From assembly GCA_002189035.1 (NCBI GenBank), contig NEEC01000008.1:1302001-1366000 (forward strand): DNA of 64,000 nucleotides. The letters run 5' to 3'. Origin of the DNA: Utricularia gibba. Lineage: Eukaryota; Streptophyta; Magnoliopsida; Lamiales; Lentibulariaceae. The translations under genes were made by a program, and so were the position numbers. The notes below the pieces were generated by a model. That model was not told the origin of the DNA. It was given only the letters and a program-made list of their open reading frames with translations, and made no database searches. Positions 7,566-36,920 of this stretch are shown in pieces. Numbering within the stretch: the first letter of the stretch is position 1; each line of letters begins with the position of its first letter.

Positions 7566-9088
7566 TCACTCTAACTGATAAACAGCAATGAACTGAGTTA
7601 ACACGCTCCCCATCCAGAGCTTCCCGTTCCTCTCTTCAACTTCACTTACAGCTCGAACCACTTTGCCTGGTTTGTCTTCTAAAATCCTAAGAATCTTTCC
7701 TTCCGGACTATACTTCACAACTACCGCGTGTACGGTGCCTCCAATGTGTATCAGATAATGGAGCTTCGGAGTGAGGGGGACCTTCAGCCATAGGTTCCGT
7801 ATGCTCGGGTGCTCGGCCAGGAAATGGGCAGACTTCGTCCTACGACAATGTACTGCAACCCAGAAGTCGCCATCTTCGTTTGTTCGAACGTTGTCAGGAA
7901 ACCCGGGTAGGATAGCCATGGCTTCCCTGGTTCCAGCCTTTTCGCCCTTCAACCAGTACTTGCTCAACCTTCAAGGGCAAAGTAAAAGAGAATGACTGAC
8001 CATTGCGGACATTGTTTGCCGATTGTGTGTACTATATATTACCTGCCACGAGAACCTTCACAGAATACAAGGAATGAGCCGTCCTTGCTGAGGGAAACGC
8101 CATTCGGAAACTGAAGATTTCGAACAAGAACTGTGGTTTCTTTAGTTGCAGGGTCGTACTTGAGGAGTCTCCCACTATCATCTGCAGTGAAAACCAGCTG
8201 CAGAAAGTTCCTGAAATGGTTTAGAATTTTCTCAGCTATCCATTCTCATGCATACTGTTGTCAAATGTATTCATCATTCAGGTCAACAAAAAGCAATGGT
8301 CAAATCAAACCTTCTTCTGTAAATGAAGCTGCTATCAGTAAAATAGATGTTCCCATGTTCATCAACGTCCAAGTCATTTGTAAATCCTAGAGGAACTCCC
8401 TCTGCTTCAGTGGTTAGTGGAGTCGCTAAGCCGCCTTCAGGCCCGACTTTCATAAGCCCGAAATACGCATCAGCTATATACAAATCACCATTCCTTTTGT
8501 CAAATCTCAGCCCCAAAGGCCTTCCACATATGTGCTCGTTTTTCACATAGTGAAAAATTGATGGTTTGTGATCACATAGCCCTTCAGAGCTGCATTTTAG
8601 GAACCATTTTTCAACAGCCAAGACAACAACAAGAAAACAGAAAGTGGTTTTCACACCCGGCATAATCTCATAGAGCATATAAGAAGTGTAATTGTGGCGC
8701 TTAAGCGGGCAATTGGAAGGATGCTTAGGGTTTCAGAAAGAGGATTGTTACCGATTAGCAGAAGTAAAAGCAAAATCAGACCACTTCTCCCCATCCCAGA
8801 AGATGACCCTGCCATCCGCGACGCCGGTATACGGACCACGGCCCATTGCGTCGAATGCTAAACTCTCCGGCCCCTGCACCTCATTCAAGAACTTAACTTC
8901 CGATTTCTGGAGAAGATTCTCAGAATCACTCTCAATCGGAACTTCCGACCAATCCGGCATTTCCGCTCTAAGCATTTTGTAATCTTGAAACCCCGACATC
9001 CCAGCATGGTTGAAGGATCCACCGCGCAGTAAACCGCTAAAAGGAGACATATTATCCCGGAAACAGCCCCCGCAGCAGCAGCTGACAT
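7566..9088 (-). CDS. Strictosidine synthase-like protein (SSL copy 2), frame broken by one base in exon 1
   Basis: Minus-strand exons are 9088-8752, 8589-8311, 8210-8043 and 7968-7566 (TGA). Exons 2 and 3 are 279 and 168 bases, exactly as in copy 1, and the protein blocks match closely (HICGRPLGLRFDKRNGDLY, FTNDLDVDEHGNIYFTDSS). The exons total 1187 bases, one short of a full frame. After MSAAAAGAVSGIICLLLAVY and CAVDP the frame slips at about 9009-9016 (CCTTCAACC on the coding strand), and the normal protein resumes one frame over at NHAGMSGFQDYKML. Restoring one base, most simply a T in the TT pair, makes the gene intact at 395 residues. Everything else (splice sites, propeller blocks) is sound, so a sequencing error is at least as likely as true decay. 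Function is as for copy 1; the two are recent duplicates arranged tail to tail. Confidence 0.85.
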
Positions 9089-12000
9089 CGCCGTTTCCAC
9101 CTAATCGTCAACTGGGGGGTTCTCTAGCTCACAAAAATCCCTAGAAATGGTGTACTGAATGAAGTAAACGGGGACGGGAGCTGCAACGCCGGTAAAACTA
9201 GCTTCCTTGCTCTCTCTCTGCCTCTCTTTATTTTTTTTTCTTTTTGTTTAGGTGGCAGAGCAGAACAGCCATACGGCGTGATCTAACTGCAGCGACCACT
9301 CCCAGCTACCCATCAACCTCCGTATGCCCCGAAGATCCATGGATGAGCTTGAGCCACATGACAGAAACGGACTTACCTCCATATCCAGTCACACTCACAG
9401 TGACTCTGTCACAAGATGGAAAGCCAAACCCAAATGTTTAACCAGACATTGGGCTACACTCATGGCCCAAAATATTCGAACTAATAATAGCCCAGCCCGA
9501 AACACTACATCAGCTCAAAATGCTCCTCCAAAAAACTATCCCATGCACGAAAAATGGCTTCTCCAAACAACATCAATCTCATTTCTTTCATTATTCTTTG
9601 GGATGCAATTTCCCTTAAAACTGCATTTTTCAGTTTAATTTAAAATATTTATATTTAAATAAGCGTATTGCATATACTCTATAAATACGTTTTTATAAAT
9701 ATATATTTAAAATTTATTATACTTAGTAGATGAGTTTATAATACATAGAAAAAAGAATTAAAACTTGTGTAATTAATAAAACTCACGTGACATTATTTTC
9801 GAAAAAAATATAATTGAAAAGATTTTACAATTATTTTCCAAACCACATTTATATTAAAAAAACAAGTATATCAAATAAACGTAATTCTCAATACACGTAT
9901 ACTTGGAAGCATAAACAAATATACTAATAAATATTATTTTTAAATATTCCTCAACACATTTTTCGGTCTATTAATGGTTTTGGATTGAATATTTTTATAC
10001 TGAATTAAATCAGATTGAATTCATTATTCAAATATTCCAAAAATACATTATTTAAATCGAACATTTCTAAATTCCAGAATGTTTAATTTTTTATAAAAAA
10101 TATTGAATTGTATCCAAAAAATCAAAAAATTAATTTTAGATTTTAAAACACTTCCAATAATTTTTCATATACATTCACAATCCTCCGTACGTTTTCACAG
10201 ATTGTACATAGTAATTCCGTATAGTGAAAAAAAATAAAATATGAAAAATATAACTGAATTAGCAGCATTTTTCTTTTATTGTGTGTGGTCGTTATCTTTA
10301 CAGATATTTAGTAATGTTGAATTCAATGTGCAAAATGGAAGCCGTTGGTTGAACCCCTTTTGTAATATGCTCATGTACGGACACTTGACCTGCTCTTTTA
10401 TTGTAAGAAATCGCTACTGTTGTAATAAACCTTTTTATGGTAATATCAGATATTTAATTAATTTTTTTATTTTTGAAATTCATAAAAGCATGTAATAAAT
10501 AGCGCGGTCGTTCTTTAAAAAAAGGAAAACGAGGTTAATGCACAAAATGGGAGAGAAAAGAAAGTCAAATTTTGAGGGGAGGGGGGGAGTAATAAATGTG
10601 TATGTGGCTGGAAATAATGTAAATAGGCGCATAGGGCTGCATAGTTGGTGGATGGAGTCTCCCCCACGTAATAATTGCCCAGAAAATTACATGTCAATGG
10701 AAATGGGAAAATGTCTATAAATAAATAATTTAAAATAAAAGGGGAACTTCTAACAACACGTCACGTGCGCGGGTGAATGTAATCGTCTGATGCTTCCTTA
10801 CCATATGCCTCACCAATCACGTCCTATTTCTCACACCTTTAAAATGACGATTCTATATAAATATATCTGATTATATAAAATAAATAAATTAATTTAAATT
10901 TAGAATATGATAAAAGTATTAAAACAAATAATTTCACATTGAAACTTAAAAATAAAATATTCAAATATATAAAAAATTTCAGATTAATAATAATCAATAA
11001 GATCTATTTTTTTTAATATGGTTTACGTTTTTTATATATTTAAACTTCACATATGTTCATTCTATCCATCCTTAATTTAAACAAAAATTTTTAATTTCAT
11101 ATAGATTATGATCTACAAAAAATAAATAAAATTAACCAAGAAATTATAGATACAGAATACGCCTTAATTGTGGTCTATTGGGGAGGAGCGTAGGATTTAA
11201 AGACCTCGGACACGAGCGTTGTACAGTTGGTCAAAGGAGATTGGCAATCAAGAGTTCGTTAAGCCAGAGGAGGACAAAAGGTAAAAAAAGACCAATGACC
11301 GCGGTGAATGGCGTCACTAGGGCATCTATGTCCTTGATTCTGTATTGATTAAAACCACATCAGACGGTAACTTTGTGTTGGCAGGGTAAATAAAACACAC
11401 ATTATTTTTACCCAGTCATTCAACCTACCTATCTCGAAATAGAGTCGAGTCTTAGATTGGTTAATAGGCTTAGATTGCAATAATATACACAGTTGACCAG
11501 CCTCATGGCATCTGGGGAGAAATAGAGCCGAACGAGGTTTCAGACATTTCGGTTTCGGTTCTTTCACTGGTTCTAACATTTAGAAAAGAGTACGCGAAAC
11601 CGGTTTGAAAATCAGAACCAAGAACCGGGCGATGTCGTTCACCGAGTTAGATTTCTAGCGGTTGATGTTTTGGGGTGTTGAGTTTAGGGTTTACTGCACA
11701 CACACTAATTCTTGCCCAATCAGACGACGGTCTGAAAACCTTCGTCCCACGCTTTTCTTCTTCATATGAGATCCTATCTTTAAAATTTCGATCAAAATAT
11801 AAGGTTGTTATTGAAATTAAGAATTCAAAGAGTCGGACGAACACTACATAAGAAATATGAATTATATTAATATTTTTCCAGATGTGAGATTAATTGTTCT
11901 AATAGTTTTTAGGACAACATTTACTAATGTTATAGATTTCTATCTTCAAAATAGATAACATTATTTTCTTCAATTCACCAAATTTCTCTGAAATTTTGGT

Positions 12001-13667
12001 TTTTTGGATCCAATCGGAAATTTTCCCAATTTATATCATTCGTTTTCAAAGCCTTTTCCCACCCGGTAGGGTGTGTTTTTTTTTTTTTTTTTTCTTTTTC
12101 AATGGGTTGCCTACGCATACATAGTCTACGAACACAACTTCTCACGCAGTGCTGAATAAAATAACATAAATGGATAGGTCCATTTGGGAAAACCAATCGT
12201 GTTTCTTAATTATTCCATAAACCCTATTCCGTACTAGGCGATCCACCAACAATCAAGCAAACGAGCCCACCTGAACATGGTGCAAAACACATTTGTTTAG
12301 AGAGCATGAATGTTCAGATCCAGTTTCTGATCTTTTCTAGAATTTACCTGAAGCATGGATTTGGGGGTTTCTGGTTGCTGGTTTGGGTATATGCATACAT
12401 CACATTTTATGAGAACTGCGACAAGTCGACAAGCCATGACGATGGATGATCAAAATCGATGCTAATGACAAGATTAGAGTTTCAAATCAAGATGGGATCA
12501 ACACAAAAAAGATTCCTGCTTTTTTTTTCTAGCATAAAAGTCCTTCTTGTCGTATTTGATAATTAAAAAACAAATTTTATAAAAATGATTACAAAAATTT
12601 TTTTAGTTATTATTTTTTTAAGAAAAAAGGTGCTTTTTAAAATATATTTTAAAAAATCAATTTTCGAGAAACAGGATCAAGTAAAACATAGCATAAGTTA
12701 ATTTGTTTTTCAAAAACTGAAAAAAAAAACACATTGAAACTTAATAAATAAGACGACTGCATTGATAGCCACCTAAATAGTGATAATAATTTTATTTTAA
12801 TTACACTTCAATGCAACCCATTTTTCTGCCAATCCTACACCGGGGGGTCACAATTGGAGTGATTTGGATTGGATTGAAAGCCCTACGAGTCAGTTAAAAA
12901 TAATAATAATAAAAAAATCACCCCCGGATATTACTCTTACAGTTTACCCCATTTTTACGGTTGTCTTTTAACCCCAAGACATTCCCAAGCCATCATCTTT
13001 TTTCGCCCCCCTCGCCCGCTGCAGCAAAAAGAGTAGCAGAAAATTAAATACACTTCTTCTTTTGTAAATGTAATCCTTTTCTTTCCTCACCCACTCATTC
13101 CATCATCATAGTGTTGAAATCGGTGGGCGACGGCCCCCTTCTCTGGCTCTTCTTTTACAACATATGATGTAAAATTCTTACAGACGAACATGTCGATTGT
13201 CTTGTAGGAGCATGGAGGTATTTTTCAATGCTAAAGAAAATAAGTGTTGAAGATACCACCCCAAAATTTCTACTCGCGACTGGGTGCACTGCACTACTCG
13301 CTTCTCAAGCTTTACCGACCAGACCAGTCCCATCTGCACATCTAATTACTATTCTCTCACCACAGAAAAGCTATAGGTACATCTATTTGTATCTACCATC
13401 TTCTGCCCCCACTTCTTCTTTTCCTCTCCAGGCTCTTCTTTGCCTTCTTCATTACAGGTCTTTCTTGATTTGAGTTTTCTTCGGATTCTCGAAAGAAAGA
13501 AAAAAAAAAGGCTTTGAGTGCAGAGGAAGAACAAGATCGATACTTAGTATTATTTTATATATAAAAAATAGAGGAGTGGAGAGTTGTTATGCTTCGTTTG
13601 TCTGTATACTGAGTGTACTGCGGGGTATGATCTGTTTCTTCTATTCTATTCTATTCCATCAGCTGAA
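9089..13667. other. Long intergenic region, mostly AT-rich
   Basis: This is the space between SSL copy 2 and the start of the YABBY2-type gene, which point away from each other, so it holds both promoters. From about 9640 to 11160 and 12530 to 12830 it is very AT-rich. Short open frames here (9324-9638, 10241-10495, 11975-12196) match nothing I recognise. A long pyrimidine-rich stretch at about 13390-13460 and 13800-13860 is probably the YABBY 5' leader. Confidence 0.6.
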
Positions 13668-16056
13668 ATGTCTTCAGAAATGACCACAGAGCGCGTTTGT
13701 TATGTTTACTGCGGCTTCTGCAACACCATTCTCGCGGTATTTTTTACTATTTTTTTAATTGAATTCTTCCTGCCTTTTGAGTGCTGTTGCGTCTGAATTT
13801 TTTCGTGTGTCTACATAAACTGGGATCTTCTCCTTCTCTACTTCTTCCTCCACCTTCGTTGCTGTTCCTTTGTAAATACTGATAAAGAAAAAGGTATGCG
13901 GTGAGGAAATCTATGGCGCTTGTTAATACACATTTATAGAATGCTTGAAAAAACCCTCTTTTTGGAAGTTGTGAATTTTCTGAGGAAATAGATCTATGGT
14001 TTCCGATTTGATATTCATGGAAAAAGAGAGATCCTTGTATTGGTGGGGTGGAAAGATGAAGAACCCTAGTTTTTTTTCATAATTGTAACTGTTAGGGGAC
14101 AAATGGGCAAAATAAAGCCCTAATATTCTCAAAAACGCTTTCCGTAATCAATTGATATCTGATGCAGCTGTGGTCTTCGTATTCAGTACAAGAATGTATG
14201 CCTCCCTTCGCCCAAAATATTGTTGTCTGAAAAAACTGGAACTCAAAAACGCACCTTCCACTTTGTGTTGGTTTGTGGAGAAAAAGCTTTGATCTGTGGG
14301 CACGCACTTACACTGTTTCTTTCTGGTTTCTGCTTCTGTGGGCTATTGAGTTCTGTGCTGTTTCAATAGCCCTAACTGTCAATTCCTTTTTTATCGTTTT
14401 TCACAACACCCAGCTTTTCCCTTCTCCAAGATCCTTCTGCGATGAATGCCTCTGTGTGTTTTACCGTCTGTAAAAAGTAACTTATCATGCAGATAGATAG
14501 ATTAGAATATGATACACCGTTGATTGGTCATTCTTACGATGAATTCTGCTCAAGTCAAGTCATTTTCTTGCTCTCTTTCCTCTCAATTCTCACGCTAAAA
14601 GAAAGAAAAAAAAAGGGAGTGGGAGAATTGATCAGTAGTGCTGTTGTCAGAACAGTAGAAAATAAGAGCCACTCGTGAATAAAGATCTTATCTATGTTGT
14701 AATTTGTTAAAAAAATTTGGGGTTTAGGGTTTTCTTCCCTTTTTTTTAACTTTATCACCAGTTTTCAATGTGGCTTAAGATGCTAATGTTGAGCAGGTTA
14801 GTGTTCCATGGGGAGCATGTTCACAATTGTGACTGTAAGATGTGGGCACTGCGCTAATCTCCTTTCTGTCAACATGGGCGCTTCTCTTCAGCCCCTTCAT
14901 CATCTCCAAGAATTCCAAGTATGTTTTCGCCATGGATCCATCTCTTGACCTTCCATTTTCACACACACTAAAGCAAGATTGTAAGTTGCAGCTTTGATTT
15001 TACCCAAAGCATTCCATCTTCCAAATTCCATGTTTCTCTTCATCTTCTTCCATGTATTAAGTTGCTAACACATGATTTGTCGTATCTCCAAGCTCCTAAA
15101 GCAGCAATCCATGATGGAAGCTGCTGTAAGAGAAGGTGCTTCCTCCTCCAAGTTCAACCGGTTCGGCTCCTTCCACCCGAATCCTCCGAAGATGATGCCG
15201 CCTCCTATCCGTCGTAAGTATCATCACAGTGCGTTTAACTCTTTCTGAATCACACCCTTGTCAAAGGGAAATCAAGTGTAACACAAATGGGGAGCACCAA
15301 CTCATTAATGTTAATCTTGTTGTTTTTATGGCCTGTTTTTGACTGTGACACTGCGGTGGATAACCTCTCAGCTGCGAACACTAGCTGCACAGCTCTAGTA
15401 CCTTCTGTGCTTCCCAATCTCCCTTTATTCACAAGCCTTTAAGACACCCCAACCCCCTCTCCCTCACACAGGCCTTGCCCGAACACCTAGATTCCTAACA
15501 TAGGATTAACCCTGGTTTGTATTGTGTCGCAGCTCCAGAGAAAAGGCAACGTGTTCCCTCGGCGTACAACCGTTTCATAAGGTATGTCGTCACCTGTTTC
15601 TCACGTGCTGATGCAGTTCTAACACGACAGGGATTCCTTATTGCACAGGGAGGAGATTCAGAGGATCAAGGCAAACAATCCAGAGATCAGCCACCGTGAA
15701 GCTTTTAGCACAGCTGCCAAGAACGTAAGTATTTTAAATTATAATAAATAAATAAATGCTCCCCCACTTGTAGCCATTCAGACATGATGATCCATTTATG
15801 GGTAACTTGTCCAGGTTTATTTATGTCGAAATAGTTATCTACATTAAATTGCAATTAATACGATTACGAAATATGATTTTTTTATTATTTAGGAAAAAAG
15901 GACACGATCAATTTTTTAAATAATCTTGAATTGCTTGTATGATTTCACATGCAGTGGGCCCACTTCCCCCATACTCACTTTGGAGATGGCAACAAACAAG
16001 GCAAGGACCACCTCCCAGTTGCAGGAGAACCAACCAGCAACGCCTTTGGTTGCTAG
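13668..16056 (+). CDS. YAB2: YABBY transcription factor, YABBY2 type
   Basis: Six exons: 13668-13736, 14797-14918, 15093-15213, 15533-15581, 15649-15724 and 15955-16056 (TAG). Exons 1 and 2 carry the C2C2 zinc finger ([13 protein letters not shown], then [15 protein letters not shown]). Exons 3 to 6 hold a Ser/Pro linker and the helix-loop-helix YABBY domain ([46 protein letters not shown]). YABBY proteins are nuclear DNA-binding factors that set abaxial fate and drive blade growth in leaves and floral organs. The ERVCYVYC start and linker fit YAB2 better than YAB5, FIL or CRC. Exon 2 is one base short: the run GGGG at 14810-14813 has five Gs in the truncated copy at 4.8 kb, and with five the frame is open through all exons (179 residues). 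As given, the frame breaks after VSVPW, so either the base is missing from the assembly or the copy is damaged. Confidence 0.9.
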
Positions 16057-16335
16057 AGAATTCAAAAACCCTATCGAAATCTAATGTTTTTTTTTCTTAA
16101 TTTAAATAAATAAAGCTATGTAGACATTGTATCATTTATCTTCTTCTTCTATATCGAGTTATTATGTAGCTATCAATGGTGGCGTAATAGGGTTTTCGCT
16201 CTAAGAACATTGAATGCTGAAACTGTGTTTTTGGAGGTTGAATGTCAGGCGGGATGGAAGACCCCCATTTGGCGCAATCATCTGATGTTAGAACGTGGAG
16301 TCCGTTCTGAGGCTGCAGTTTCTGGACTAGAACGC

Positions 16336-16353
16336 GATTACGATTACGATTAC
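16336..16353. repeat. (GATTAC)3 hexanucleotide repeat
   Basis: Three exact tandem copies of GATTAC lie just downstream of the YABBY2-type gene. Confidence 0.85.
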
Positions 16354-16553
16354 AACCCTTCATGGGGTTGTTGAATGAGAGAGGAAGCAGACGAGGAACT
16401 TGAATTCGAAGCTCTTTTGTTTGGTTTTTTTTCAACTGCAAGAATGGTGACACACGAACCCATACATGTGTGTGTGTGAGAGGGAGAGATATGGGAATCA
16501 GTGCCGAAGAGGGGATGAGCAGCAGTCCCCCACATCTTCATTCATTCATTCCA

Positions 16554-16577
16554 TTCTTCTTCTTCTTCTTCTTCTTC
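16554..16577. repeat. (TTC)8 microsatellite followed by (TGC)n
   Basis: Eight exact TTC units run directly into three TGC units. Trinucleotide tracts like this are often length-variable. Confidence 0.9.
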
Positions 16578-16666
16578 TGCTGCTGCTGATGCTGATTTGT
16601 GGACTATGAGATCTTTCTAATTTGGTATTCCAAATTTCAAACTTGGGAGGCAGGAAACCACGAGGT

Positions 16667-16691
16667 TTGTGTTGTGTTGTGTTGTGTTGTG
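16667..16691. repeat. (TTGTG)5 pentanucleotide repeat
   Basis: Five exact tandem TTGTG units. Confidence 0.9.
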
Positions 16692-18367
16692 TGTATGTGT
16701 CTGGGCGCTGCCACCCACCATGTGTTCCGTAGTAAATGAGATGAATGATTGGGCAATGATATGGTCCTTCCTCGAAACCAGAGTGGGGGTCTCACCACTA
16801 CTAGTAACTGAGCTGAAAGTGAGATGTCACACACTCACACTAATGCCATCTCCTCTTTCCAACCACACACCTTCTAAGATAATTACACACACAAACACCG
16901 CAGAGGTATGCATCCCATATCAGAATCAGGATATACAATTGACTCTCAGGATAGGCATCCAACTAGGCTCACTCACTTACTGATTTCCTTATGTTAGAAT
17001 ACAAAATCCAACATCAGTAAATAAAATTGAATTAATTAAATATATAAGAAATTATAAATTATTAATAATCGATTGTAACTAATCTTTTATAATATAATAC
17101 ATATTTATTATATACTTGAACTTCAAGTATAGTTACACCATACATCTAATTCTAAATTTCAACAATTTACTCCTTTTTATGGTCACACCCTAAATCCATA
17201 CACGCAAACGCGGCCACCCTAGTGGCAGAATAGCCCACCCCCTCAATAGATTTTAGCACAGAGATGGGCAGATGCTCAAGCATTCACATGGCTGCTTGTC
17301 TGCAGCTGCTGAAATTCCTATTATTTTTTGGAATAAAAAACTAGGGCGGCCTGTTGAAGGTGTGGTCCTTGAAAGAATATTTTTGGGTGGCGTAATTAGG
17401 ATTTTCATGCTCATATCAAATTAATAATAATAATAATAGTAGTAGTACTAATAATATGTCCGCATAATTGCCGATAAAAAATATGCATAACTTTTTTAAA
17501 AAAAATTATGTCCACTCAATTATTAGATCTCGGATGTTTTTTTTGGTCAGAAATAAGTGATATGATAAAAGTTTTATTAACAGCATTATTGATCACGTAT
17601 TTATTAAATAAATTAATATAGAATATTGTCAGAATGTTCATATTTACATATTTTTTAAAGAAATATACAAAGTTACATAAAATACTGTCAATATTTTTAT
17701 TATTGACAAAACTGATGATTAGAGGGATAGTATTATTTTTTTATATCATATGATTCGTTAAATCCATCTAAAACATTGGTTTGCATTTCATAATGAATAA
17801 TATCTTGATAATTAATCCATAACTTTTATATATTAATTATCACCAAATTAACGATTAATATATCTTATTTAACATAAATTGATCTTTGATGTGAGGAAGG
17901 ACTTTTACGCCAGTCCATTGATGGGGCAATTCGTCTGACTGGCTCGAATCGTGAGGCAATCTTAAAGTCATTGGGCCACGTTATAGAAATGTATTTGGGC
18001 CTTTAGATCCTAGACTATTGGGCTGCGCCAATTATTTTTCTTTTTACTTTATCTTGTTCTATTTAAGTATTTTAGAATTTTCTTTAATGTAAATATATTT
18101 CAAATGAACTATAAAAAATTAGTATTCTCAATTCTATTGATTTTTAAATTAGTTTAAATAACTTACAATGAAAGTGCATAAATAAACATAATAGTTCATT
18201 TAGGGTTCATAGAAGAGAATATACGGATTTATTTTTATTTGGAATACAAAAATCCTTGGTCAAATTATAAAAAAAATCCAATTCTTCTTTAAGGTTACTT
18301 TTATCCTTTGTTGCATGATTTCAATGAACTTTTTTTTTATTCACATATAATTTAATCAACCAATCAA

Positions 18368-18386
18368 ATATATATATATATATATA
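18368..18386. repeat. (AT)n microsatellite
   Basis: Uninterrupted alternating AT for 19 bases within AT-rich intergenic DNA. Confidence 0.9.
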
Positions 18387-19177
18387 ATATTTAATTTCTT
18401 TACCAAAACCCTCCATATCAATCCAGAAAAACAGGTTCTTAGTGGATATTGTTATTGTTTTGACGGCATGCGGTGTATCAAATGCCTATCCCATGTCGAG
18501 AGATTCTGGATGTAATGAGACGCGGGCTCACAGCTTCCATACGAACGCTGCATCCAATTCCATCTTATCCCCATCTCTTTGGTTCCATTTCTTCCACAGC
18601 CATATCTTACGTCTGAAAAGACAATGCGACCGGCGTTGTAATAATAAACTTTGTGACACGTGGAGTGTGATAACTTGGGTTGAACTATGAGATCCTCACA
18701 ACTAAACAAGTTGTCCGCAAGTACAAATCTTGCAATGGATAAGACTAGCAATTTAAAATGATTTTAAATTTCATTTAATTTTTTAAAATAAAAAGGGAGG
18801 GTGGGGTATGGAAGAACCAATGAGTTTAGGGTCTAGTATCAATAAGGTTCAAAAAAGCTCTTACAAGGAGGACTATGGTAATGAATCAAACTAGAAAGTG
18901 TCATTTATAACTGTGGTTGAGTTAGATCCTTCCAACATTCCATATATCGTGCTTGTAAAAAGCTTTAAAATGATATGTTGTGCATATTATATACCATGTC
19001 ATAATTAGTCGTTAAAATCACTACAATTTTGGTAATTAAAGAATGTGAACTCTTTCTTTTTACTGCTTGTGAATTTATGTATGTTTTTCTTTTAGATAAG
19101 TTAGAGAATCTAAGACGAATGAGGTTAGTGTGTTGATTGTAATGGAATATGTGTGCCATTCTGATTTAGAATAAGGG

Positions 19178-19366
19178 TGTGTTTAGTCGATTGGATTATG
19201 AGAGTTTAATAGGAGTATATGCTTGTTTAATGGGATTATAAGAACTTGACATACGGGTTGTAAATTACATCACGTTCGATTCCTATGTTTAAATAAATCT
19301 AAATCTGAATAAATTAAATCTTTAATATGTTAATATGTTAAACCAAGCATACGTAAGTGTAATGGG
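19178..19366. mobile_element. Possible MITE-like element with degenerate inverted ends
   Basis: The segment opens with GTGTGTTTAGTCGATTGGAT and closes with ATATGTTAAACCAAGCATAC, whose reverse complement GTATGCTTGGTTTAACATAT partly matches both the opening and an inner TATGCTTGTTTAATGGGATT. Ends of the GTGTTTGGTT kind are common in plant MITEs. It has no coding capacity, and the borders are approximate. Confidence 0.35.
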
Positions 19367-20119
19367 TTGATCTTGGAATCCTGAAATCGCCCAAGTGGAA
19401 TTTAAGATAAACGGAATAAACGATAATATCCTTGAGAATATATTGAATTGGTATCCATTTCAAGGGAGACCATGTGTTGTTACACGTGGCAGAAAACGGT
19501 AGAAGCTGAACTGTCCTACGTTCGTATTAGTAGACGCTGACGATGAGGAGACGCGTTCAACCCAAACGTTGACACGTGGAGCAACCTCAGGTATTGAGTG
19601 GCGTGGCTGTGATTCGGACGAAAGGTAATTGGTGTCCTTGGTACGTATGCAGATTCCGACAAGTGGGTAAAATAAAGTAGTGATCCTGGTACTTGATATA
19701 ATTAAGGTAATTAAAAATAATAATCAATATACCTTTTAAACATAGTTATATATACTATATTCATTTTGATAGGCCTATTTTTTTAATATACATGTGATTT
19801 ATAAAACATTTGTATAACATATCACTACTCCCTCTTGGTTGCTCCTCATGTAAGATTATTATCTAATTTATGTACGAGCAGTGGTGGAACATAATCCAGA
19901 AGAGAGGGTGGCCAATATGTTAATTTTCTCTTAATTATTTTTTTAAAAAATATATTAGTCATTAAAAAATTAAATTTCACATTCATGCATGGTGTCCAGT
20001 ACTTTCACATGCAAAATGAGACGGAGAAAGCTACCACCAGCGGGCACTAAACCTCGTCGCTCTTTTCTTATCCCCTATGCTCCACACAAGCCAAAAGTTC
20101 GACTTCAATACTATATAAG

Positions 20120-20400
20120 GATGTTTGATAATTGGGTATAGAAGTTTTATACTCAAGTTTACAAATATACCATTATTTGATTAACTATTATATGTATATT
20201 AATCTTATATGATCATATCATTTACATGTCCATTTTTTTAAACATATGAGTGATATACATAAATTGAGGAGATAATATTCATACTACTCACATACCCATA
20301 ATTTTATTTTCATATATCAAACGTTATATATAATTAAATATATACATACCTAATTATACTATACTTGAATATACTTATACCTTACTATTAAACAATATCT
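20120..20400. mobile_element. MITE-like element, copy B
   Basis: The left end GATGTTTGATAATTGGGTAT continues AGAAG; the reverse complement of the right end reads AGATATTGTTTAATAGTAAG and continues GTATAAG. These are imperfect inverted repeats of about 24 bases. The whole element resembles copy A at 6521-6927 at both ends and in the middle, so this is a dispersed family. It is about 280 bases and non-coding. Confidence 0.5.
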
Positions 20401-21999: not shown

Positions 22000-23234
22000 A
22001 TGTCAGCGGTGAAAGCCCTGATCTCTTTTCCTCCTTTGGAGGAGACGGAGATGAAGGAAAAGCAAGGATAGTTGCTATTCTGGGAGAAGAGAAGAGAAGA
22101 AATGGAGCTTCAATCAGAAGAACTCTGTCTGCTGATATGTCGTCCAAGAGTTGGCTTCAGGGGAATGGATTTTTTTCCCTGGTGAAAAGGAATCCAAACT
22201 CATATGCATCTGATTCTTCTTCATCTTCTGAAAGTGAGGAAGAATGGGAGAGAAGCCCATCTGTGGAAGATGTGTGGAAGAATATTGTTCGGGTGGGAAA
22301 GCCAGACAAAACAGAGAACTGTAGCTCTATGGTTCTGATCAAACAGAAGAGTGAGAGCTCTGTGCTTCCTCCGCCGTATGCTCATCCAATGGTTAGAAGG
22401 TCAGCGATGTACATGAGTGAGAAGAGTCTCCAAATGTGCACCGAGCCGCTAGGATCCGAAACCGGCGCCGACTGTTGCTTATCCTGCTACTCGTGTTCAC
22501 GAGTTTTCAACGGAGATGGAAGTGATAGGGAACGGGTCGCCGGAGGAAAACAGCGTTCACATTTTGTTAACAAGAAATCCCCTGTTCCGCCGCCGCTGAC
22601 CTCTGCTGCCGGCGCAGATGGGACTACTCTGTGCATCCAATCTCGACGGGAAAATGGCCGATTGGTGATGGAGGCTGTGTCACAAGCTCCCAGAAACCGT
22701 TTTATAACACAGCGTCGGGATGGGCGGTTGGTTCTCACCCTGGCACGTCCTGTTCCGACGGCTTCGGCGGTAGAAGAGGATGACTACCAAAGAGATGATG
22801 GCTCTGTGGAGGAGAAAAAAGGTGCAACTTTTGTGGTGAGCGGGAATCTCAACACACTACCAAGTGGGATTCACAAGTTGGTTGTCAAAAGGCTGGTGAC
22901 CATTGGAAACGAGAATCCCAAGTTGGTGACGGAAGCAGACCACAAGAATCTGCCATCCCCGACCCGCATGGCGCCGCTGCTGATCCCTCAGCCGCCGTCG
23001 AGGTCGCCTTCCTTCAATGCCTACGAGTACTTCTGGAGGAGCAAAAGCGCCGCCCCAACAACTCTCAAACGATCCTTCAACAACATCAGCGCCGGAAAAT
23101 GGAACCAGAATCGGGAATCCGTGGCGAATAAAGGAAATAGGGAAGACTGTTTTCTGCCATATATGAAGAAGGGGTGCAGGGAGACAAGAACAACAATACT
23201 CTTCTGGGAATCAGATTGCATACCAACTTGGTGA
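22000..23234 (+). CDS. FANTASTIC FOUR-like (FAF-like) protein, frame broken by one base near the N-terminus
   Basis: The main frame (ATG at 22137 to TGA 23232-23234) contains the FAF domain: PVPPPLTSAAG, then RRENGRLVMEAVS and RNRFITQRRDGRLVL, with EYFWRS near the C-terminus and acidic Ser-rich stretches. FAF proteins are plant-only regulators of shoot meristem size that act through the WUSCHEL/CLAVATA circuit; FAF-like members are less studied. An upstream ATG at 22000 reads MSAVKALISFPPLEE and TEMKEKQG, then hits TAG. One frame over, the sequence continues IVAILGEEKRRNGASIRRTL and SADMSSKSW straight into the main frame. A single missing G in the GG pair at 22066-22067 would join them into one intronless protein of 411 residues. 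I therefore take 22000 as the likely true start, with 22137 as the start if no base is missing. Confidence 0.85.
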
Positions 23235-26200: not shown

Positions 26201-26248
26201 TTAGTTATCTTTTTAGTATCGCTGGAGAGTATTGCCATTTGATTTCAA
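23235..26248. other. Intergenic, leader of the LHW-like gene at the right end
   Basis: No coding region is supported. Short open frames at 24225-24509, 24565-24768 and 25923-26114 look like chance frames. The last kilobase is pyrimidine-rich and carries several short upstream ATGs, as expected for the promoter and 5' leader of the bHLH gene. Confidence 0.5.
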
Positions 26249-29200
26249 ATGGGGTATTTTTTGAAAGAGGCTTTGAAGACTCTTTGTGGAGTCAACCGAT
26301 GGTCTTATGCTGTTTTCTGGAAGATCGGCTTCCAAAATCCAAAGTGAGTTCGTTCAAAACTTTCTTGATGGCTGTCTATGTATCAAGTCTGTGTTTCTTT
26401 CCATTTTTTTGTTGTTTACTACTTTACTCTAAACAAGACGAAACATTGATTCTCCCATCCATTCTCTATCCCACGTCAGGAGCTTTGATGTGACCTTAGT
26501 AGATATCGAAGCTGGGTTATTGATTTGTTTTTGCAGGTTTACTGTTATGTTTTAAGAATTACTTGTTAGGATTATGTCTAAGATTGCTTAGTTTGTTGGT
26601 TATCATTTACACCATTCGGAATTTATTGTTGTCCCTTTTTTCCTATCTCTTCACTGGCCTTCACTTTCCATGCTTGGAGTTACCCGGTTGGTGAATCCAA
26701 TTTATCTCTGAGAATCTTCTTGCATTGAAGAAATAGTTTTTATGCGTTTTTTTAGGAAGATACGCCCTTCTGTCCTTTTCGTGGAGAATCTACTTATTAT
26801 TTCCCTTGTGAGGTTTACATTTTCTTGTTTTTGTTTTCGGGATGTTTCATGCGTTTCTTCTTAACATGTCAAATACGCCAACTCTGTTATTGAGTACACC
26901 TGGATATTTTCTAGGCTTCTAGTATGGGAAGACTGCTACCATGAGAGTTCATCAGACCCGAGATTTTCGGAGTTCCCTGGAAGTTCTACTCTTGAAAATA
27001 TCTGTCATGAATCTCAGGATAGGGGGAGTTTGCATTTGCTTGTAAACAAGATGATGTTTAACAACCAAGTTATTGTTGTTGGAGAAGGGTAAGGCACAAC
27101 CGATAGAATTCCTGTCTTTTCTTCTTTAGATAATGGAAATATTCTTAAACTGCACTCTGGTTTTCTCAGATTAGTTGGAAAAGCTGCATTTACAGGGATT
27201 ACCAGTGGATCCTGTCCGAGGATTTTTATCAACAAAATCATCATCACGAGGTAAATATGACATCAAAATCTGCTAGATAGGCTTCTGAGCTGCTTATCAT
27301 GGATGCCTTCGTGATTTATTTCACCTCATGTTTTTGTGGCCTTCCAGGTTCAGAACGAAGTATTTCAGCAATTCTTAGGTGGAATGCAGGTGTAGTTTCA
27401 TGATTATCTTCGTTTTCATCCAAACCATGATTTGTGTACTGCTGAAAATTTACTCTGCTCTGTCGGTTGCACAGACAGTTGCGGTCATTCCTGTTCTTCC
27501 ACATGGAGTCATTCAACTTGGATCATTCTTAACCGTATGTTTCTGCAACATATTTATATTCACATAAAAATTGAACGCTTCCTTAACCAAAAAATTGAAA
27601 TTTGTCGATGATATTCATGTGCTGAAATTTCTGATTGTGGTGGTTTATGATCTTGCATTTCATGCTTCTAGATCCCAGAAAATGTTGACTTTGTGAATGA
27701 TGTGGCTGCATTAATACTACACCTTGGATATTTATCTAGTGGCCTTCCTTCCGAGAATTCTGCAAGAAATGGATATCCTCCAAGGCTTAATTTTTCGGTT
27801 TCCCATGGAGACGCAACCATAACTGGCTTGTCTAAGGAGTCCAACGTTTTTGACGCCCATTGTTCATTCAACTCAATGGATTGTTTTCCATACTCTCAGC
27901 AAGCTTCCCTTCTGGATCCATCACTGTCCACTGGCATCCAAAATGAATTGCTGCTTAATGGTGCTCTCTTTTCGAGATACCAAGAGTATCCTAAAATTGT
28001 TCCAGAGGTTAAGCTGAAGTGTTCTTCCTCACCCCACATGAATGGTAGTTCAGAAGCTAGGATGGAACAGTCTAACTCATGTTATGTCTCAGGTTCAGCG
28101 CTAGATATATCTTCTGCAGAGGACAGTTTCAGAAAAATACCAGCTGACTTAAATGCTGTACTTGGACGTGGCCTGAGCAGATCGGCCGTAGCATCTTCGA
28201 ATTATATGATGAATGCTGATGGACATAGCTTTTGTAGCCATGCTGCAGCTCCTGTTGGGATCAAGCCTGCAATGCAGACTTGCCACTCATTGAACGTTGC
28301 ACGTCCCACAGTGAATTCATTTCTGTCTAATGGCTCTAGTGCCAAACTTGATCACAGGGAGGAAGCTCTTTCATCAAATGGATTAAATGCCTCCAAGGTA
28401 GAAATGCTGTTTGAAGAATCATTTGCTCGGCCCGGATGCAGTGATGATCTTTTCGATGCTTTGGGGGCGGATTTCAAGAATAAATTGCTCAGTGGCTGCT
28501 GGAATAGCTCCCTGGAAAATGAACCGGTTGCTAATATGGAAGCCTCTGAGTATCGCTCATCTATGAAACAGGCCATGGCTTCACTAGATGCTAATAATGC
28601 TCACACAGAGAGCTCTGAAAATGGGTGTTTTTCCATCCCATCAACGGTGTTGAAGGTTCAAGCCTCAATGACAAGCGCAGACCTCAGCAGCTCTTGCAAA
28701 ACAACATTGACAACTATGTGTTGCTCCTTCGCTCCCAATCCTTCCCCATCTTATTGTCAGTCAGCTTCGTTTTCACATGGAGCTAGTTCTGTTTGTGGAT
28801 CACAACTGACTTCTTTCTTAGAAAGCAATCAGAAAGCAACCCAGGGCAGCAGCGTGTCTACAGAGTTCTCGAAAAAACCTTGTGTTGCAGGCAAAGCAAC
28901 TCGCAAGAGGCTTAAACCTGGAGACAATCCTAGACCAAGACCAAAAGACCGTCAAATGATTCAAGATCGAGTTAAGGAACTAAGAGAAATAGTGCCAAAC
29001 GGGGGAAAGGTAGTAACCTGAATTGAACTTTCCATCATGCATGCAGTTCACGTTATGTTCCATACGAATGCCCTTTCTATTGCAGTGTAGCATTGACGCT
29101 CTACTGGAACGCACCATCAAACATATGCTCTTCCTACAAAGCGTAATGAAGCATGCTGACAAGCTAAAGCAATCTGGGGAGTCTAAGGTGTGAAATCATC

Positions 29201-29852
29201 AGCCATTTGCTGCACAGATAATTTTGAATCATTCACCACTCAAACAGATACTTAATTCTATTACTTTCTGGAATGCAGATTATAAGCAAGAATAGCAGCT
29301 TGGTTTCAAGAAACAACTTCGAAGGAGGAACTACATGGGCATATGAAGTGGGCTCACAATCTATGGTGCCCCCTATAGTTGTGGAGAATCTACATCAACC
29401 CGCCAACTGCGTGTCGAGGTAATGCACCTCATTTTCTGACCAGAATCATATAGCAGAACTACTACCTCCATTACTAACACATGCAGGCCTTCTTCTGTTA
29501 CAGATGCTTTGCGAAGAAAGCGGGTTGTTCTTAGAGATAGCCGATGTAATAAGGGGACTGGGGTTAACCATCCTCAAGGGTGTCATGGAGACACGGGGTG
29601 ACAAGATATGGGCTCGTTTTGTCGTCGAGGTAGTGCTTCGACTTCTCCTCAGAACCAGAACCTCCATCATTTGTGACTGATGTTGGGCTCAAACAGGCAC
29701 ACAGGGACATCACAAGGATGGAGGTCTTCATCTCATTAGTCCACCTTCTGGAACAAGGCGCTGAAGATGGAGCTACACAGCCACATGGCTTCAGCAGCAG
29801 CACCAAAAACACGAACCCTGAACAACTTCACACGGTTGCACCAGACCCTTGA
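26249..29852 (+). CDS. LONESOME HIGHWAY-like bHLH transcription factor
   Basis: Ten exons: 26249-26343, 26915-27088, 27170-27250, 27348-27389, 27475-27534, 27672-29009, 29086-29187, 29279-29418, 29504-29629 and 29697-29852 (TGA). The N-terminal MYC-N-like domain reads ALKTLCGVNRWSYAVFWKIG, LLVWEDCYHE, VIVVGEGLVGKAAFTG and AVIPVLPHGVIQLGS. A long Ser-rich middle exon leads to an atypical bHLH (RPRPKDRQMIQDRVKELREI, then CSIDALLERTIKHMLFLQSV). The C-terminus is a dimerisation region (MLCEESGLFLEIADVIRGLG). LHW-type factors pair with TMO5-type bHLH proteins to control vascular cell divisions. Two one-base deletions break the frame: in GGG at 27195-27197 and at the exon 8 end (GAGGTAA at 29416). 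Adding one base at each gives a continuous 771-residue protein. Which paralogue (LHW or an LHL) cannot be settled. Confidence 0.88.
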
Positions 29853-31514
29853 CACCGATCATGCGAAGCCGCCGGAGTCGGATCATCGATGTGTTGAGAG
29901 CGAGTGTCGATAAGTTCGCCGTGACGAACACATCTTCAAGGATTCCCCCCAGCCAAATAAGTGAAGGTCTCTGTTAGCTGTATCACATGCAATAGACAAC
30001 TATGCTTCTTTCCTCTGCTATCGCCATACGTCATAACACCTCAATTTTTTTTTATAATAGAAAGTAAGGGCCCCACATGGTCAACCGGCAGGTGGGTGCC
30101 GGGGAGAAATTGATTAAAAAGGTTTGAATAAATTAATAAAAGATTCCCACAACGTGGGCCTACGTGATATTGGGCCATGGACAATAATGATGATGGCCTC
30201 CTGACATCGAGCATCATCCTTAGCACATCAAGTGGCACCGCCCCTGCACAGTAACTTTCTTCCCGTTTCACTTCCTTCACGAAATATACATATTTTCGTT
30301 TCAATTTTTTCATTTTGAGTTTAGTTTGTGGACAATATTCCAAGTTACAATCAATATAAAAATTTTAACATTTAAATTTTAAAATTATGTTATAGGTTCT
30401 TTAATTTTTTTTATAAATAATTCAATACCAAATTTTTGAAATTATATTTAATCTCCTATATTATCAAAATTATTCGATTTTTATTTTTAAAATTTTTTTG
30501 AAAACTATTTGAATTTTTATTACATGGTTTGATAATTTAAAATATTTTTTTATAATTTTGAAACTTGAAATTTAAATTACTTATACTGACTTAAATTTGA
30601 AATTTTTTTATAATATTTTTCTCATTTTCTATATATATAAATTGTAAAATATTTATTTTATATACTTTTTGATAAATATAATGATATTTTAAATACATAA
30701 ATACATAATTAAAAGTGTCACCATACATCACAATCAAAAATATTTCATAAATCAAGGGGAATTATTAAAATATTTTAAATGGCAAAAACATTGTGAACTT
30801 TTTTTTATAAATAATTGATGATGTGAACCATTAAATCGCAATTCAAATTAATTAAACTGTTTATTTTAATTTTATATAATCTTTGAGTCGTTTTTTATTG
30901 GAAGTGATGTGAAGTTTTCAATAAAAATTATTAGTTATTTCCAAATGAACAATAATTACAAGTTTAAAAAAACAAATATCTATCACGTGCTTATCCACTT
31001 TTGTTTTTCAATAGACGTGCCAGCCTTGCTCTCTTTACAACCTTATGTTTCTAATCTCGGAAACATCAAATTCAACCACTTCCCAACTCCCAAGCTAACT
31101 GCCCGCATTTTCTCCTCCATTTTCCCAATATTTTAATTACAATTTACAATTTTTTCTATTCCTCCTGACCCATGGGCTTCCGGGTTCCTTTGAAGGATCC
31201 GACCCTAAATTTGGAAATAAAAAACCACTAGAAAACAAATATGCTGGAGCAGGTGTTTTGATTGCTGTTAGGCTCCAACTTGCGGAATTGTTTTCCAATG
31301 CATTAAATAACCGCTCCCAAACAGACCCATCCCAGGCGTGTCCATGTCCGAGTCCGTGTCCGGGTCCGCGTCCCAGCCCAGTGTCGTGAACTCTCAGGCA
31401 ATCTTTTTTTATAAATAATAAGGTTGAGATGAGGAAGACGGTGCCCCGCCCCTATCCACCACTGGACAACGGAGAAGGGAGAAAGAAGAAGGTAAGCGTA
31501 GGGTTACTTGTTCA
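29853..31514. other. Intergenic, AT-rich
   Basis: The 3' flank of the bHLH gene, a very AT-rich core at about 30350-30900, and the promoter of the glucosyltransferase gene. No coding region is supported. A phased GTCC repeat near the right end is listed separately. Confidence 0.6.
31338..31373. repeat. Phased (NNGTCC)6 repeat upstream of the UGT gene
   Basis: Six contiguous hexamers GTGTCC, ATGTCC, GAGTCC, GTGTCC, GGGTCC and GCGTCC keep GTCC in exact register while the first two bases vary. It ends about 140 bases before the UGT start codon. Confidence 0.85.
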
Positions 31515-32892
31515 ATGGAGCACCGCCACGTGGTCATCTACACTTTCCCTGCTCAAGGCCACCTCAACCCGGCTCTGCAGTTCGCCTACCGCCTCAACTC
31601 CGTGGGCGTCACGGTCACCTTCGTAACCAGCCTCTCCGCCCGCGCCAAGATCGACAAGGACGTCGTCGCCGGCGCGCAGGGGAAGTTATTGAGGTTCGCA
31701 TACTACTCCGATGGCTTCGACGGCGGATTTACCTTCCGTGACAACATGGATAAGCTGAAAACGGAGATGCGTAGGGAAAGCACCAAGACTCTGAGAGAGA
31801 CCCTCGCGGCTGCGGAGGAGGAGGGCCTGCCCGTGACGTACGTAGTTTACACTCTGCTTCTGCAATGGGCGGCAGCGGTGGCGCGTGAGTACCACGTTCC
31901 GGCTGCTCTGTTATGGATCCAGCCCGCGGCGGTATTGGCGATTTATTATTACTACTTCAATGGCTTGGAGGTGGAGATCTCCTCCAAATCCGACGACCCG
32001 GATTGGAAACTTCAGTTGCCGGGTATTCCTACTCGTTTTCCCAACGGGATATTCCTTCTTTCCTGCTTCCTTCCTCCCTTCCCTGTTTCAGTTCTCGGCG
32101 CTGCAGAGCTTCAAGGAGCAAATCGATTTCCTGCATTCGGAATCCAATCCGAATATTCTCGTAAACACGTTCGACGAATTGGAGACGGAGATCCTCCAAG
32201 GCCTGGGAAACTGGAAACTGATCGGGGTCGGCCCATTGGTCCCTTACTCCATCATCGACAAAAAAGATGGCGTATTCGGAGAACCAAAAGAAGACTACAT
32301 CGAATGGCTGAGTTCCAAGCCAAACCACTCTGTAGTATACGTCTCCTTCGGGAGCTTGCTGTCTCATCCGAAAGAGCAGATGGAGAAGATAGCGAAAGGA
32401 TTGCTCACCACAAAAAGACCATTCTTGTGGATCATTCGAGATGACAAGAAAGACGACGATGACCACAAGAAAAAGCTAACGGAAGAGGTTCAGGGCTTCG
32501 GAAAAATCGTTTCTTGGTGCAAGCAGCTGGAAGTCCTCACCCACCCCTCTCTGGGGTGCTTCATGTCGCACTGCGGATGGAATTCCACAATCGAGAGCTT
32601 GGCGTGCGGTGTCCCCATGGTGGCTTTCCCTCACTGGACTGATCAAGGAACGAACGCGAAGATGATAGAAGACGTGTGGAGAGTAGGAGTAAGAGTGAAA
32701 GCAGGCGATGGAGGGATAGTTGAGGATGAGGAGATCAGCAGATGCATTGAACTGGTTATGGATGGAGGGGAAAGCAGCAGAGAAATGAGGTACAATGCTC
32801 AGAAATGGAAGGCTTCTGCAAGAAAAGCTGCCCTTGAGGAAAATGGGAGCTCTAGAAAAAATCTCATGGAATTTGTAGGGCATTTGTCTTGA
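31515..32892 (+). CDS. UDP-glycosyltransferase, UGT75 type; frame broken by two single-base deletions
   Basis: This is an intronless family-1 glycosyltransferase. The N-terminal acceptor domain reads HVVIYTFPAQGHLNPALQFA, with the catalytic His of the GHLNP block. The C-terminal donor domain holds the 44-residue PSPG box beginning WCKQLEVLTHPSLGCFMSHC, with HCGWNSTIESLACGVPM and PHWTDQ. Its final Gln favours UDP-glucose. Overall wording (YYYFNGL, VNTFDELE, FGSLLSHPKEQMEKIAKGL) fits UGT75 enzymes, which act on auxin, ABA, anthocyanins or apocarotenoids, so the acceptor is unknown. The frame moves twice by one missing base: in the run TTTTCCC at 32036-32042 and near 32078-32086. The segment between them, QRDIPSFLLPSSLP, is the conserved family motif read in a third frame. 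With both bases restored the protein is about 459 residues; without them it is dead. Confidence 0.87.
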
Positions 32893-35823
32893 ATAATCAT
32901 TCTACTTTTACTTCCTTTTATTCACAATTCAAGAATTATATTTCATAACTTGTATGGAGTTTTAGTTATGTGATTTAAATTTTAGATACATTTGATAGAT
33001 AGATTTAAATAAAAAGTTAGTACAAAGTATTAGAAGTTTACTATAAAGCACTTTCATTTCTTTGTTTTCAATGATAAAAAGTTTAAATTTATCTAAAAAT
33101 AATTTTTAAATTAAAATATTAATTTAATTTAAAACTTATTAACAACCATCCATATTAAATAAAGCATCATTAATTTAAAAAGGTTGGTTTAAATATTCCT
33201 AACCTGAAGGTGCTAATTGACTTTAGTATGCTTGTAGACCTTGATAGGGTGTATGTAAAACATGTTTATATCACTCCAAACAAGTATATGCTCTATTTAA
33301 TAGATGTGATATGATTTTTTAAATAATTATTTTTTTAAAGTTATTGTCTAATGTAAGTTTTATTAATCAAAAAAATTATTGAAAGATGATCTTATGTTAG
33401 TCTTTAGAAGACATTTACTATGATTAAAACGATAGAAATATTGTGATATATTTCAAATCTTTATTATGCTGATATATTTATTTTAAATATATCTATAGCT
33501 GCAATAATAAGATTATAAACATATCTATGTAAATTTTATTTATCAAATTAACTATTAATTATTACATAAGTAGTGATTATTTAAATATAAATAATTAAAC
33601 TTTATATCAAATGTATTTGAAGTAAAATTCGATCTTCCGACGTGAACTGATTGGGCTGGGCTTTAGAAATGTGAGCCTACGGTAACTTACTGAAGCCCAA
33701 GAAAAAGATGGACAGGCTGCGATAATTAAGGCCCATAGTTCAAAAGACAAAGAGCTGAGATAAGGCCCCAGGCCCAAGCCGCTCAGACGGGTGGGGTTAT
33801 CTTCTTCTACCTTCAGCCGAAACAGCTCATCTTTGGCTTCGATTTTTTTCCCTGTTCCAGCTCCAGGTCGTAACAAAATCCCATGAGGGAATCTTCGAAA
33901 CACGTAAAACGAAAGGAACCTGACAAAACAGGCCCCGAATCGCCCAAAATGCCTTCGCAGGAGCTTCACAAGAGATTCCTTCTCTAGCAACTGTTTCTTT
34001 GAAGTGGCAGCGAGGATTTACTCATCTTCTTCGCTAAACCCAAAATCAGGAACTCAGCATGCGAGTTGCGAAGCGCGGAGGAAAAGGTTGTTTATTAAGT
34101 TTCTAAACAAGGGCATTTTGCACCCAATGCCCATTTCAGTCGAGAGTCACCGTTCTCAGTTTCCGGTGGACGCCGTCGTCTGCAATTTCCGGTCGCCCAA
34201 TCCACATCCACGAATTCTGGAATCCCCAAGTCAATGTTTTTGAAACATAGTTCATTATTTCGTTTCAGATCTGTGAGTAATTGAAAAAGAATGAATTTTT
34301 ACCGAGGCAGTAAAATCAACGACATATTTCAAAAGGGCTACAAGCTTACAGCAGCTATTTATTGGGTAGAATTAAAAAAAGGGGTGAATTTTAAAGGGAA
34401 GGGCAGAGAGAGATCTGCGAAAGTGAGGGGAGGTGGGCAGCGCAGGATGTGTCGCTTTCGCTCCCGTCTGTATATGCCGCGAAATCCGGACTCCAGCCTC
34501 AGCCCCCAGTCCCACCTCCCGTTGTAGTTACTGTAGAAAACGATGGGATAAGTGAAACCATGGGAAGCAAAGTCCGGCCCTTCAAACGGAAGGGAAACTG
34601 TCACGGAGGCAGAGGCAGTGTGAAAAAGGTTGGTGAAGCGTATTATTGTGAGCATTATTAGAGAAAGGGTTGTCTTATCTAAGCGGCATAATTGAATGGG
34701 CATCTTATCTTTCCATCCATCTCTAGGTAACTTTTGCAATTTTGACAGTGGAGAGTCAGTGAAATAATTTGTGGTTAGGGTGGTGTCATCTACTGCGACA
34801 TCCATTCTCCAGTTCACTGTGTTGTCGCTTGGTTTAGGTAACATACCGCTGGACGCATTGCACTTTCATTATTAGATGCTGTTGCATTCCATCGCAGCAC
34901 TCAACCTTCTGCACTTCTCAGAGAGCTGTAGTAGCAAGTGGTGTAGTCACTTCCAAAGGAGACAAAAGGAGCCCTCGACCAGACTCCTCAACAAGGACTA
35001 TTCGGCCTCAAACAGTTGATCAAGTGGTGAGTTTTATGAATTCAGATGGACTTGGAAACTTACATGATGATGGAAATACATGCTCATTATTGAGGGGGTG
35101 GGGGAGTGGAGTTTGCAGTATGTGGGGGAAATGGGAGGAGCATCTGGGTTGACCCTGTGCTGAGCGCTCCCAGCTCACGTCGTCTTGTTTTTCGTGATAA
35201 AAAAACAATCTTTTCTTGGGGTGATGTTGATCCGCCTTTATGCATAAAATATTGCTTTTATCTCAAGGGAGACCAATTTCGTTGAGACATGAGTGGGTGA
35301 TTCGGCGTCATCAAATTCCTTTTTCTACGTCACTACAAAACAATACGGAGAGATGGAAGATGGAGCTGAGCTGAGCTCAGAAGTGAGAACACAGCAGCAC
35401 TCCCCACATTTCCCTTCACTCCCCTTCCTTTAAATCCTCCATTTTTCTCAGATCTTTGCTTATGCTCTTCTCCACCCAAATGCAAGCTTCCCTTTCCTGC
35501 TCTCTGTGTTGATTCGAATCTGGGAAATGGGCTCTCCGGAGACCTCTTTTTCTTTTTGAGTATCACCATATGACCCATGTTTTGATTTCCTGGTTTCCAC
35601 TACAGGGAAGCTGTGAACTTCTCCCACACTTCGCTGAATCCCAAGTCTAAAAAAGCTCTAGTTGTTGTTGCTGCTGCTCCCGTGGTATTTTTAGTACTAG
35701 GGCTGGGGTTGTTCTAATCGCTGCTGAAACTGTACCCACTGCTCGCTTTCAGGGGCCAATGTTATGATCAGTTTGGGAGATTCGTGCAGAGTATGAGGAA
35801 ATCATGGAGATGGGAGGAGGGAA
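32893..35823. other. Intergenic, promoter and leader of AS1
   Basis: AT-rich from 32900 to 33600, then more balanced. Open frames at 33607-33990 and 34359-34844 (minus) and 34004-34243 (plus) show no known domain. The last few hundred bases are the 5' leader of AS1, with upstream ATGs at 35793 and 35804. Confidence 0.5.
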
Positions 35824-35827
35824 ATGA
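35804..35827 (+). promoter_or_regulatory. Upstream ORF whose stop overlaps the AS1 start codon
   Basis: ATG at 35804 opens a seven-codon frame (MEMGGGK) that stops at TGA 35825-35827. The AS1 start ATG is 35824-35826, so the two share ATGA. A second upstream ATG at 35793 opens a 19-codon frame that runs through the AS1 start to a TGA at 35850-35852. Both would limit AS1 translation if they lie in the mRNA. Confidence 0.6.
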
Positions 35828-36920
35828 AGGTAAGGCAAAGATGGCGCCCTGAAGAAGATGCATTGCTTCGTTCATATGTTAAGCAATACGGACCCAGAGA
35901 CTGGAATTTGGTATCTCAGCGTATGAATGTCACCCTCAACCGTGACGCCAAGTCTTGCTTAGAACGGTGGAAGAATTATCTGAAGCCTGGAATCAAGAAA
36001 GGGTCATTGAGTGAGGAAGAGCAGCGCCTTGTGATTCATCTGCAGGCTAAGCACGGTAACAAATGGAAGAAAATTGCGGCTGAGGTCCCCGGCCGGACGG
36101 CGAAGCGGCTGGGCAAGTGGTGGGAAGTGTTCAAGGAGAAGCAGCAGAGGGAATTGAAGGAGAGCAACAAGAGTGTTGAACCCATTGAGGAGAGAAAGTA
36201 CAATCGCATTCTCCAAAGTTTTGCTGAGAAGCTTGTGGAGCAGGGTAACCTATTGGCCGGAATTACAATGCCGATGCCTCTTACAAACGGCGGATTTATT
36301 CACTCCGATCAGCCGGTGCCTTCTCCTGTGCTTCCTCCGTGGCTTGCTAGCTCCAGCTCTAGTTCAATCACTGCTAATGTTAGACCCCCATCACCATCTG
36401 TAACTCTGAGTCTTTCACCCATAACTGTCCCACATGCACCTCCAATTCCTTGGCTGCAAGGAGATAAGGCAACGGAGAGTACCTCTCACAGTCTGATCAG
36501 CAACCTTCCTTCAACTGGGATGGTTAATCCCTTGGCTGTGCAGAATACCCCTCTCCTCTCGGAGATTGTTGAATGCTGCAGGGAACTGGAGGAAGGGCAT
36601 CAAGCATGGATGGCTCATCGCAAAGAAGCTGCGTGGAGACTGAAGCGTGTAGAGCTGCAGTTGGAGTCTGAGAAAGCAAGCAAAAGGAAGGAGAAAATGG
36701 AGGAAATAGAAGCTAAAATAAACGCCTTGAGGGAAGAGCAGAAAGCTACATTGGATTGGATCGAAGCTGAGTACAGGGAGCAGTTGATGGGCTGAGGAGG
36801 GAGGCGGAGGCTAAAGAACAGAAGCTCGCAGAGCAGTGGTCCGCAAAGCACCTTCGCCTAATGAAGTTTCTTGAGCAGATGGGGGGCGGAGGCATTGCTT
36901 CCGGAACAAGTGGAAGATGA
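35824..36920 (+). CDS. AS1: ASYMMETRIC LEAVES1 / PHANTASTICA R2R3-MYB protein; one base missing near the 3' end
   Basis: [20 protein letters not shown] opens the R2 repeat; R3 follows with [20 protein letters not shown] and [20 protein letters not shown]. The C-terminal half has the family blocks [29 protein letters not shown] and [19 protein letters not shown], a coiled coil. The family (AtMYB91, PHAN, ROUGH SHEATH2) represses KNOX genes with AS2 in leaf primordia and recruits Polycomb. The coding region is a single exon. As given the frame stops at TGA 36793-36795 after EYREQLMG. One base over, [16 protein letters not shown] and [11 protein letters not shown] run to a TGA at 36918-36920, exactly the family C-terminus. 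A single G lost from GGG at 36789-36791 accounts for this; the restored protein is 365 residues. It is tail to tail with the MYB3R gene. Confidence 0.95.

Follow-up and report, generated by a model that had tools for sequence, protein, structure and literature searches.

Eight reading-frame breaks in a 64,000-nucleotide window of the Utricularia gibba genome (C414:1302001-1366000), each the loss of a single base, are in all likelihood residual consensus errors of a long-read assembly, judging from the assembled sequence. The consensus would call one base too few, in most cases within a short run of G or C, thereby depriving otherwise intact genes of their reading frame. The U. gibba genome was PacBio sequenced, with Unitig_0 as the largest complete chromosome (PMC8333044), and the assembly analysed here (100.09 Mb in 516 contigs) is probably a PacBio assembly incompletely polished with short reads. 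This is a known kind of error, an ordinary fault of long-read consensus and not biology.

A search of the genome with AS1 recovered a copy on C3 that is 86% identical at the DNA level, and the syntenic duplicate there (80 kb, C3:1730001-1810000) served as the yardstick for reading frames. This block is colinear with the window from 1.8 to 45.6 kb, in reverse orientation, and contains SSL2, YABBY2, FAF-like, LHW-like, UGT and AS1 among other genes; the two regions are a homeologous pair from whole-genome duplication. A frame-aware codon alignment of the window against the duplicate covered approximately 10.2 kb of coding sequence and resolved the positions of missing bases only to about one codon. 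At all eight sites the window is one base shorter than the duplicate, whose frame is open there, which bears out the eight single-base frame breaks proposed in the earlier note (Table 1). Five of the sites lie where they had been placed, while three are shifted by approximately 5 to 20 bases: the second LHW site (from about 29418 to 29398-29402), the first UGT site (from 32036-32042 to 32019-32024) and the second UGT site (from about 32082 to about 32075-32081). The loss falls slightly before the visible change of frame.

Table 1. Broken genes and sites of single-base loss in the window (window coordinates; identities are to the C3 copy)
Feature	Position	Strand	Details
SSL2-type strictosidine synthase-like gene, 4 exons, one break	7572..9100	-	Amino acid identity 0.70-0.84 per exon; Pfam SSL_N, exon 1
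SSL2 exon 1 single-base loss	9011..9016	-	GGATCC-TTC vs duplicate GGATCCATT; CC run before TTC
YABBY2 gene, 6 exons, exon 2 broken once	13662..16062	+	Exon amino acid identity 0.88-1.00
YABBY2 exon 2 single-base loss, GGGG run	14810..14814	+	TGGGG-AGC vs duplicate TGGGGAAGC
FAF-like (Fantastic Four) gene, single exon, one break	22000..23234	+	Pfam FAF PF11250, E 8.8e-13
FAF-like single-base loss, GG run	22066..22069	+	GG-ATAG vs duplicate GGAATAG
LHW-like bHLH gene, several exons, two breaks	26910..29770	+	Pfam bHLH_LHW, E 2.8e-12, long exon
LHW site 1 single-base loss, GGG run	27193..27198	+	ACAGGG-ATTAC vs duplicate ACTGGGGACTAC
LHW site 2 single-base loss, CCC run	29398..29402	+	Duplicate CCCC
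UDP-glycosyltransferase (UGT) gene, single exon, two breaks	31509..32895	+	Pfam UDPGT, E 1.5e-23, 3' part
UGT site 1 single-base loss	32019..32024	+	CC-GGG vs duplicate CCAGGG
UGT site 2 single-base loss, CCC run	~32075..32081	+	TCC-CTT vs duplicate ACTGCTT
AS1-type MYB gene, intronless coding region, break near 3' end	35797..36920	+	Pfam Myb_DNA-binding, E 2.2e-24
AS1 single-base loss, GGG run	36789..36793	+	GATGGG-CTG vs duplicate GATGGGTCTG, third copy on C328 GATGGGGCTG

The sites share a sequence context. All eight touch a G/C run of at least two bases and six touch one of at least three, compared to 27% and 9%, respectively, expected for a random one-base deletion in coding sequence. An A/T run is required at none of the eight, though A/T runs of at least three bases outnumber G/C runs in this coding sequence; the bias is specific to G/C runs. 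At the SSL2 site (window position 9013) the window has two bases where the duplicate has three, and in AS1 the window has GGG where the third copy, on C328, has GGGG. The codon alignment placed the loss at the first LHW site in the duplicate; direct translation found the duplicate open through AAFTGDYQWIL (LVGRAAFTGDYQWIL in one frame) and the window broken, with AAFTG followed by DYQWILSEDF one frame over. That the second LHW site might be a mere intron was considered and rejected, the loss lying approximately 18 bases upstream of the intron. Homopolymer length spectra gave no clear G/C deficit.

The window contains two strictosidine synthase-like genes (2506-4075 and 7572-9082), which lie in opposite orientation and flank a second YABBY2-like gene (4716-6029, minus strand). 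The C3 block has one match for both strictosidine synthase-like genes, which may reflect the loss of a copy on C3. The second YABBY2-like gene and its C3 duplicate (approximately C3:1801398-1802670) consist of zinc-finger exons only, two in number, with open frames and 93% amino acid identity between copies in exon 2; YABBY/HMG-like domain exons were undetected nearby in either homeolog. The gene may encode a short YABBY protein limited to the zinc finger and retained in both homeologs.

The same signature is found elsewhere in the genome. Neighbouring fragments of one gene were compared for frame in the GRAS, KCS, BAHD and GT47 families, which are largely intron-poor, and across many contigs these four families yielded 23 clear -1 breaks and five breaks of the type "+1 or -2"; the chance of five or fewer of the latter among 28 is approximately 5e-4 (hand calculation). 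The "+1 or -2" case on C244, read directly, consists of two separate -1 losses, and the case at C414:3443952 has several bases fewer than a near-identical copy on C422 that forms one open frame. Comparison of five broken GRAS loci with intact paralogs identified six losses, each adjacent to G/C-rich codons, and not one gain, with the reservation that paralogs broken at the same codon might share an inherited loss and are therefore not fully independent. GRAS genes on C244, C375, C142 and C2 are split by single-base losses at or near G/C-rich GGPP codons, and several of the genes split in these codons we take to be DELLA-like, a label read from the motif. UDPGT Pfam fragments gave too little gene coverage for frame calls. 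The type of break is independent of gene and location.

One locus is present on two contigs: C422 (15001-39000) copies the end of C414 (3422357-3446356) with >99.9% identity over 16 kb. The alignment breaks at approximately C414 3438576-3442652, and the contigs look redundant or partly misassembled. Over 16,133 bases, C414 and C422 show a single substitution and four indels of one base each (GGG/GGGG, CCCC/CCCCC, CCCC/CCC and GGGG/GGG), all four in G/C runs. Indels are denser as C414 approaches its end, where they again outnumber substitutions; the higher density would fit falling coverage. Between alleles, substitutions usually outnumber indels, and the C414/C422 differences are therefore best read as consensus errors. 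A GRAS gene that is split on C414 is a single open frame on C422; some discordances fall outside genes, and in noncoding-looking sequence an ORF check is uninformative on the correct version. Because the same fault recurs genome-wide and between duplicate contigs, the breaks in the window are almost certainly assembly mistakes.

There are several potential alternatives to consensus error at all eight sites. It is conceivable, at rather long odds, that the sites are mixed, with one or two real frameshift alleles of recent origin among a majority of consensus errors, an explanation that overlaps with the preferred one. The window rate (eight in approximately 10 kb) is higher than the C414/C422 discordance rate of approximately 1 per 8 kb per contig, a figure to which systematic errors shared by the two contigs are invisible; this difference in rate also weighs against the preferred explanation. 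However, the window was chosen for its many breaks, which inflates its rate, and all eight sites are alike in length, direction and G/C context.

It is very improbable that biased fractionation following whole-genome duplication has turned the window copies into real pseudogenes through one-base losses and left the C3 copies functional. Each broken gene does have a C3 homeolog, and the C3 block has fewer breaks than the window (two compared to eight). However, the mixed lesions of pseudogenes (nonsense codons, insertions and larger deletions) are absent: in the approximately 10.2 kb of coding sequence in the codon alignment, the window copies have neither extra bases nor internal nonsense codons, as the earlier note had claimed in reporting no extra base and no other damage, and the alignment revealed no larger frame-breaking indels in them. 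The stops that it lists are common to the duplicate and lie at exon edges, at gene ends or outside coding sequence. In addition, UGT and FAF are broken in both copies at different sites, the two single-base losses of the duplicate block falling in FAF and the 5' part of UGT, at positions undamaged in the window; if the losses were real in both blocks, both copies of these genes would be dead through different one-base losses. The duplicate also appeared to have a third loss, in MYB exon 2, but its position is beyond the end of the exon and it does not enter the count. Window and duplicate together have 10 losses and no gains (P = 1/1024, one-sided, hand calculation), a one-sidedness that exceeds chance. 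In the DNA alignment of window and duplicate, single-base gaps numbered 12 versus 10, without an excess on the window side, a comparison that was uninformative and, like the smaller number of losses in the duplicate block, does not favour consensus error.

Selection on the broken genes also argues against pseudogenes. Pairwise estimates are dS 0.63, dN 0.141 and dN/dS 0.23 for the broken genes, compared to dS 0.46, dN 0.096 and dN/dS 0.21 for the intact genes. The ratio is low both before and after the breaks, and segments 3' of the last break range from 0.00 to 0.36, below 0.4 in every gene. The broken genes are still under purifying selection, as strong as that on intact genes, although pairwise ratios are blind to very recent loss; relaxed selection was not found by pairwise dN/dS, which recent relaxation would escape. 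Pseudogenes also fit poorly with the same signature appearing between two assembly copies of one locus and in many unrelated genes. The homopolymer-type consensus bias suspected in the earlier note is thus supported by the -1 signature, seen both genome-wide and in the duplicate block, the G/C-run differences between C414 and C422, and purifying selection.

Slimmer still is the prospect that this plant lineage has a real, genome-wide tendency to fix losses of one base in G/C runs, while homeologs or RNA-level rescue preserve gene function. A search for programmed frameshifting found no conserved slippery shift site, the homeologs being open at the window sites and broken elsewhere. Least probable of all are real but tolerated deletions with the frame restored at the RNA level, by shifted splice sites or otherwise, for which a second acceptor five bases downstream in YABBY2 (GTTAG/TGTTCC, the slash marking the cut) would restore the frame minus two codons, but the AS1 and UGT breaks lie deep within single exons where no such acceptor was seen, and no slippery motif or break position is common to window and duplicate.

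If the breaks are consensus errors, work that relies on this assembly, whether it counts genes, claims gene loss or examines fractionation, will report many sound genes as truncated or lost. DELLA-type GRAS genes (by motif) are among those split, and automated annotation would probably call the GRAS genes split at the GGPP codons broken. Published gene losses from this genome first need to be checked against reads or cDNA. Four DCL genes have been reported in U. gibba, including a truncated DCL3 with RNA-seq and RACE support (PMC8333044); a domain search for Dicer_dimer gave three matches genome-wide compared to these four genes, and leaves the truncation of DCL3 undecided.

PacBio consensus has been reported to lose single bases in homopolymers, with 561 such losses in one E. 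faecium genome (PMC4888979). The breaks described here resemble that case in that one base is lost, in short homopolymers, genome-wide and in frames that are otherwise intact; they differ in that, as far as seen, only G/C runs are affected, down to lengths of two to three, and in that they are recognized from assembly sequence alone. Indels in long-read assemblies also create false pseudogenes (PMC12007338), and here too conserved genes appear truncated or split through indels; whereas reference genes or reads were used there, homeologs and duplicate contigs act as stand-ins here. Finally, as in post-duplication fractionation in plants, the affected genes lie within a syntenic duplicated block, but, unlike in fractionation, they show neither mixed lesions nor relaxed selection.
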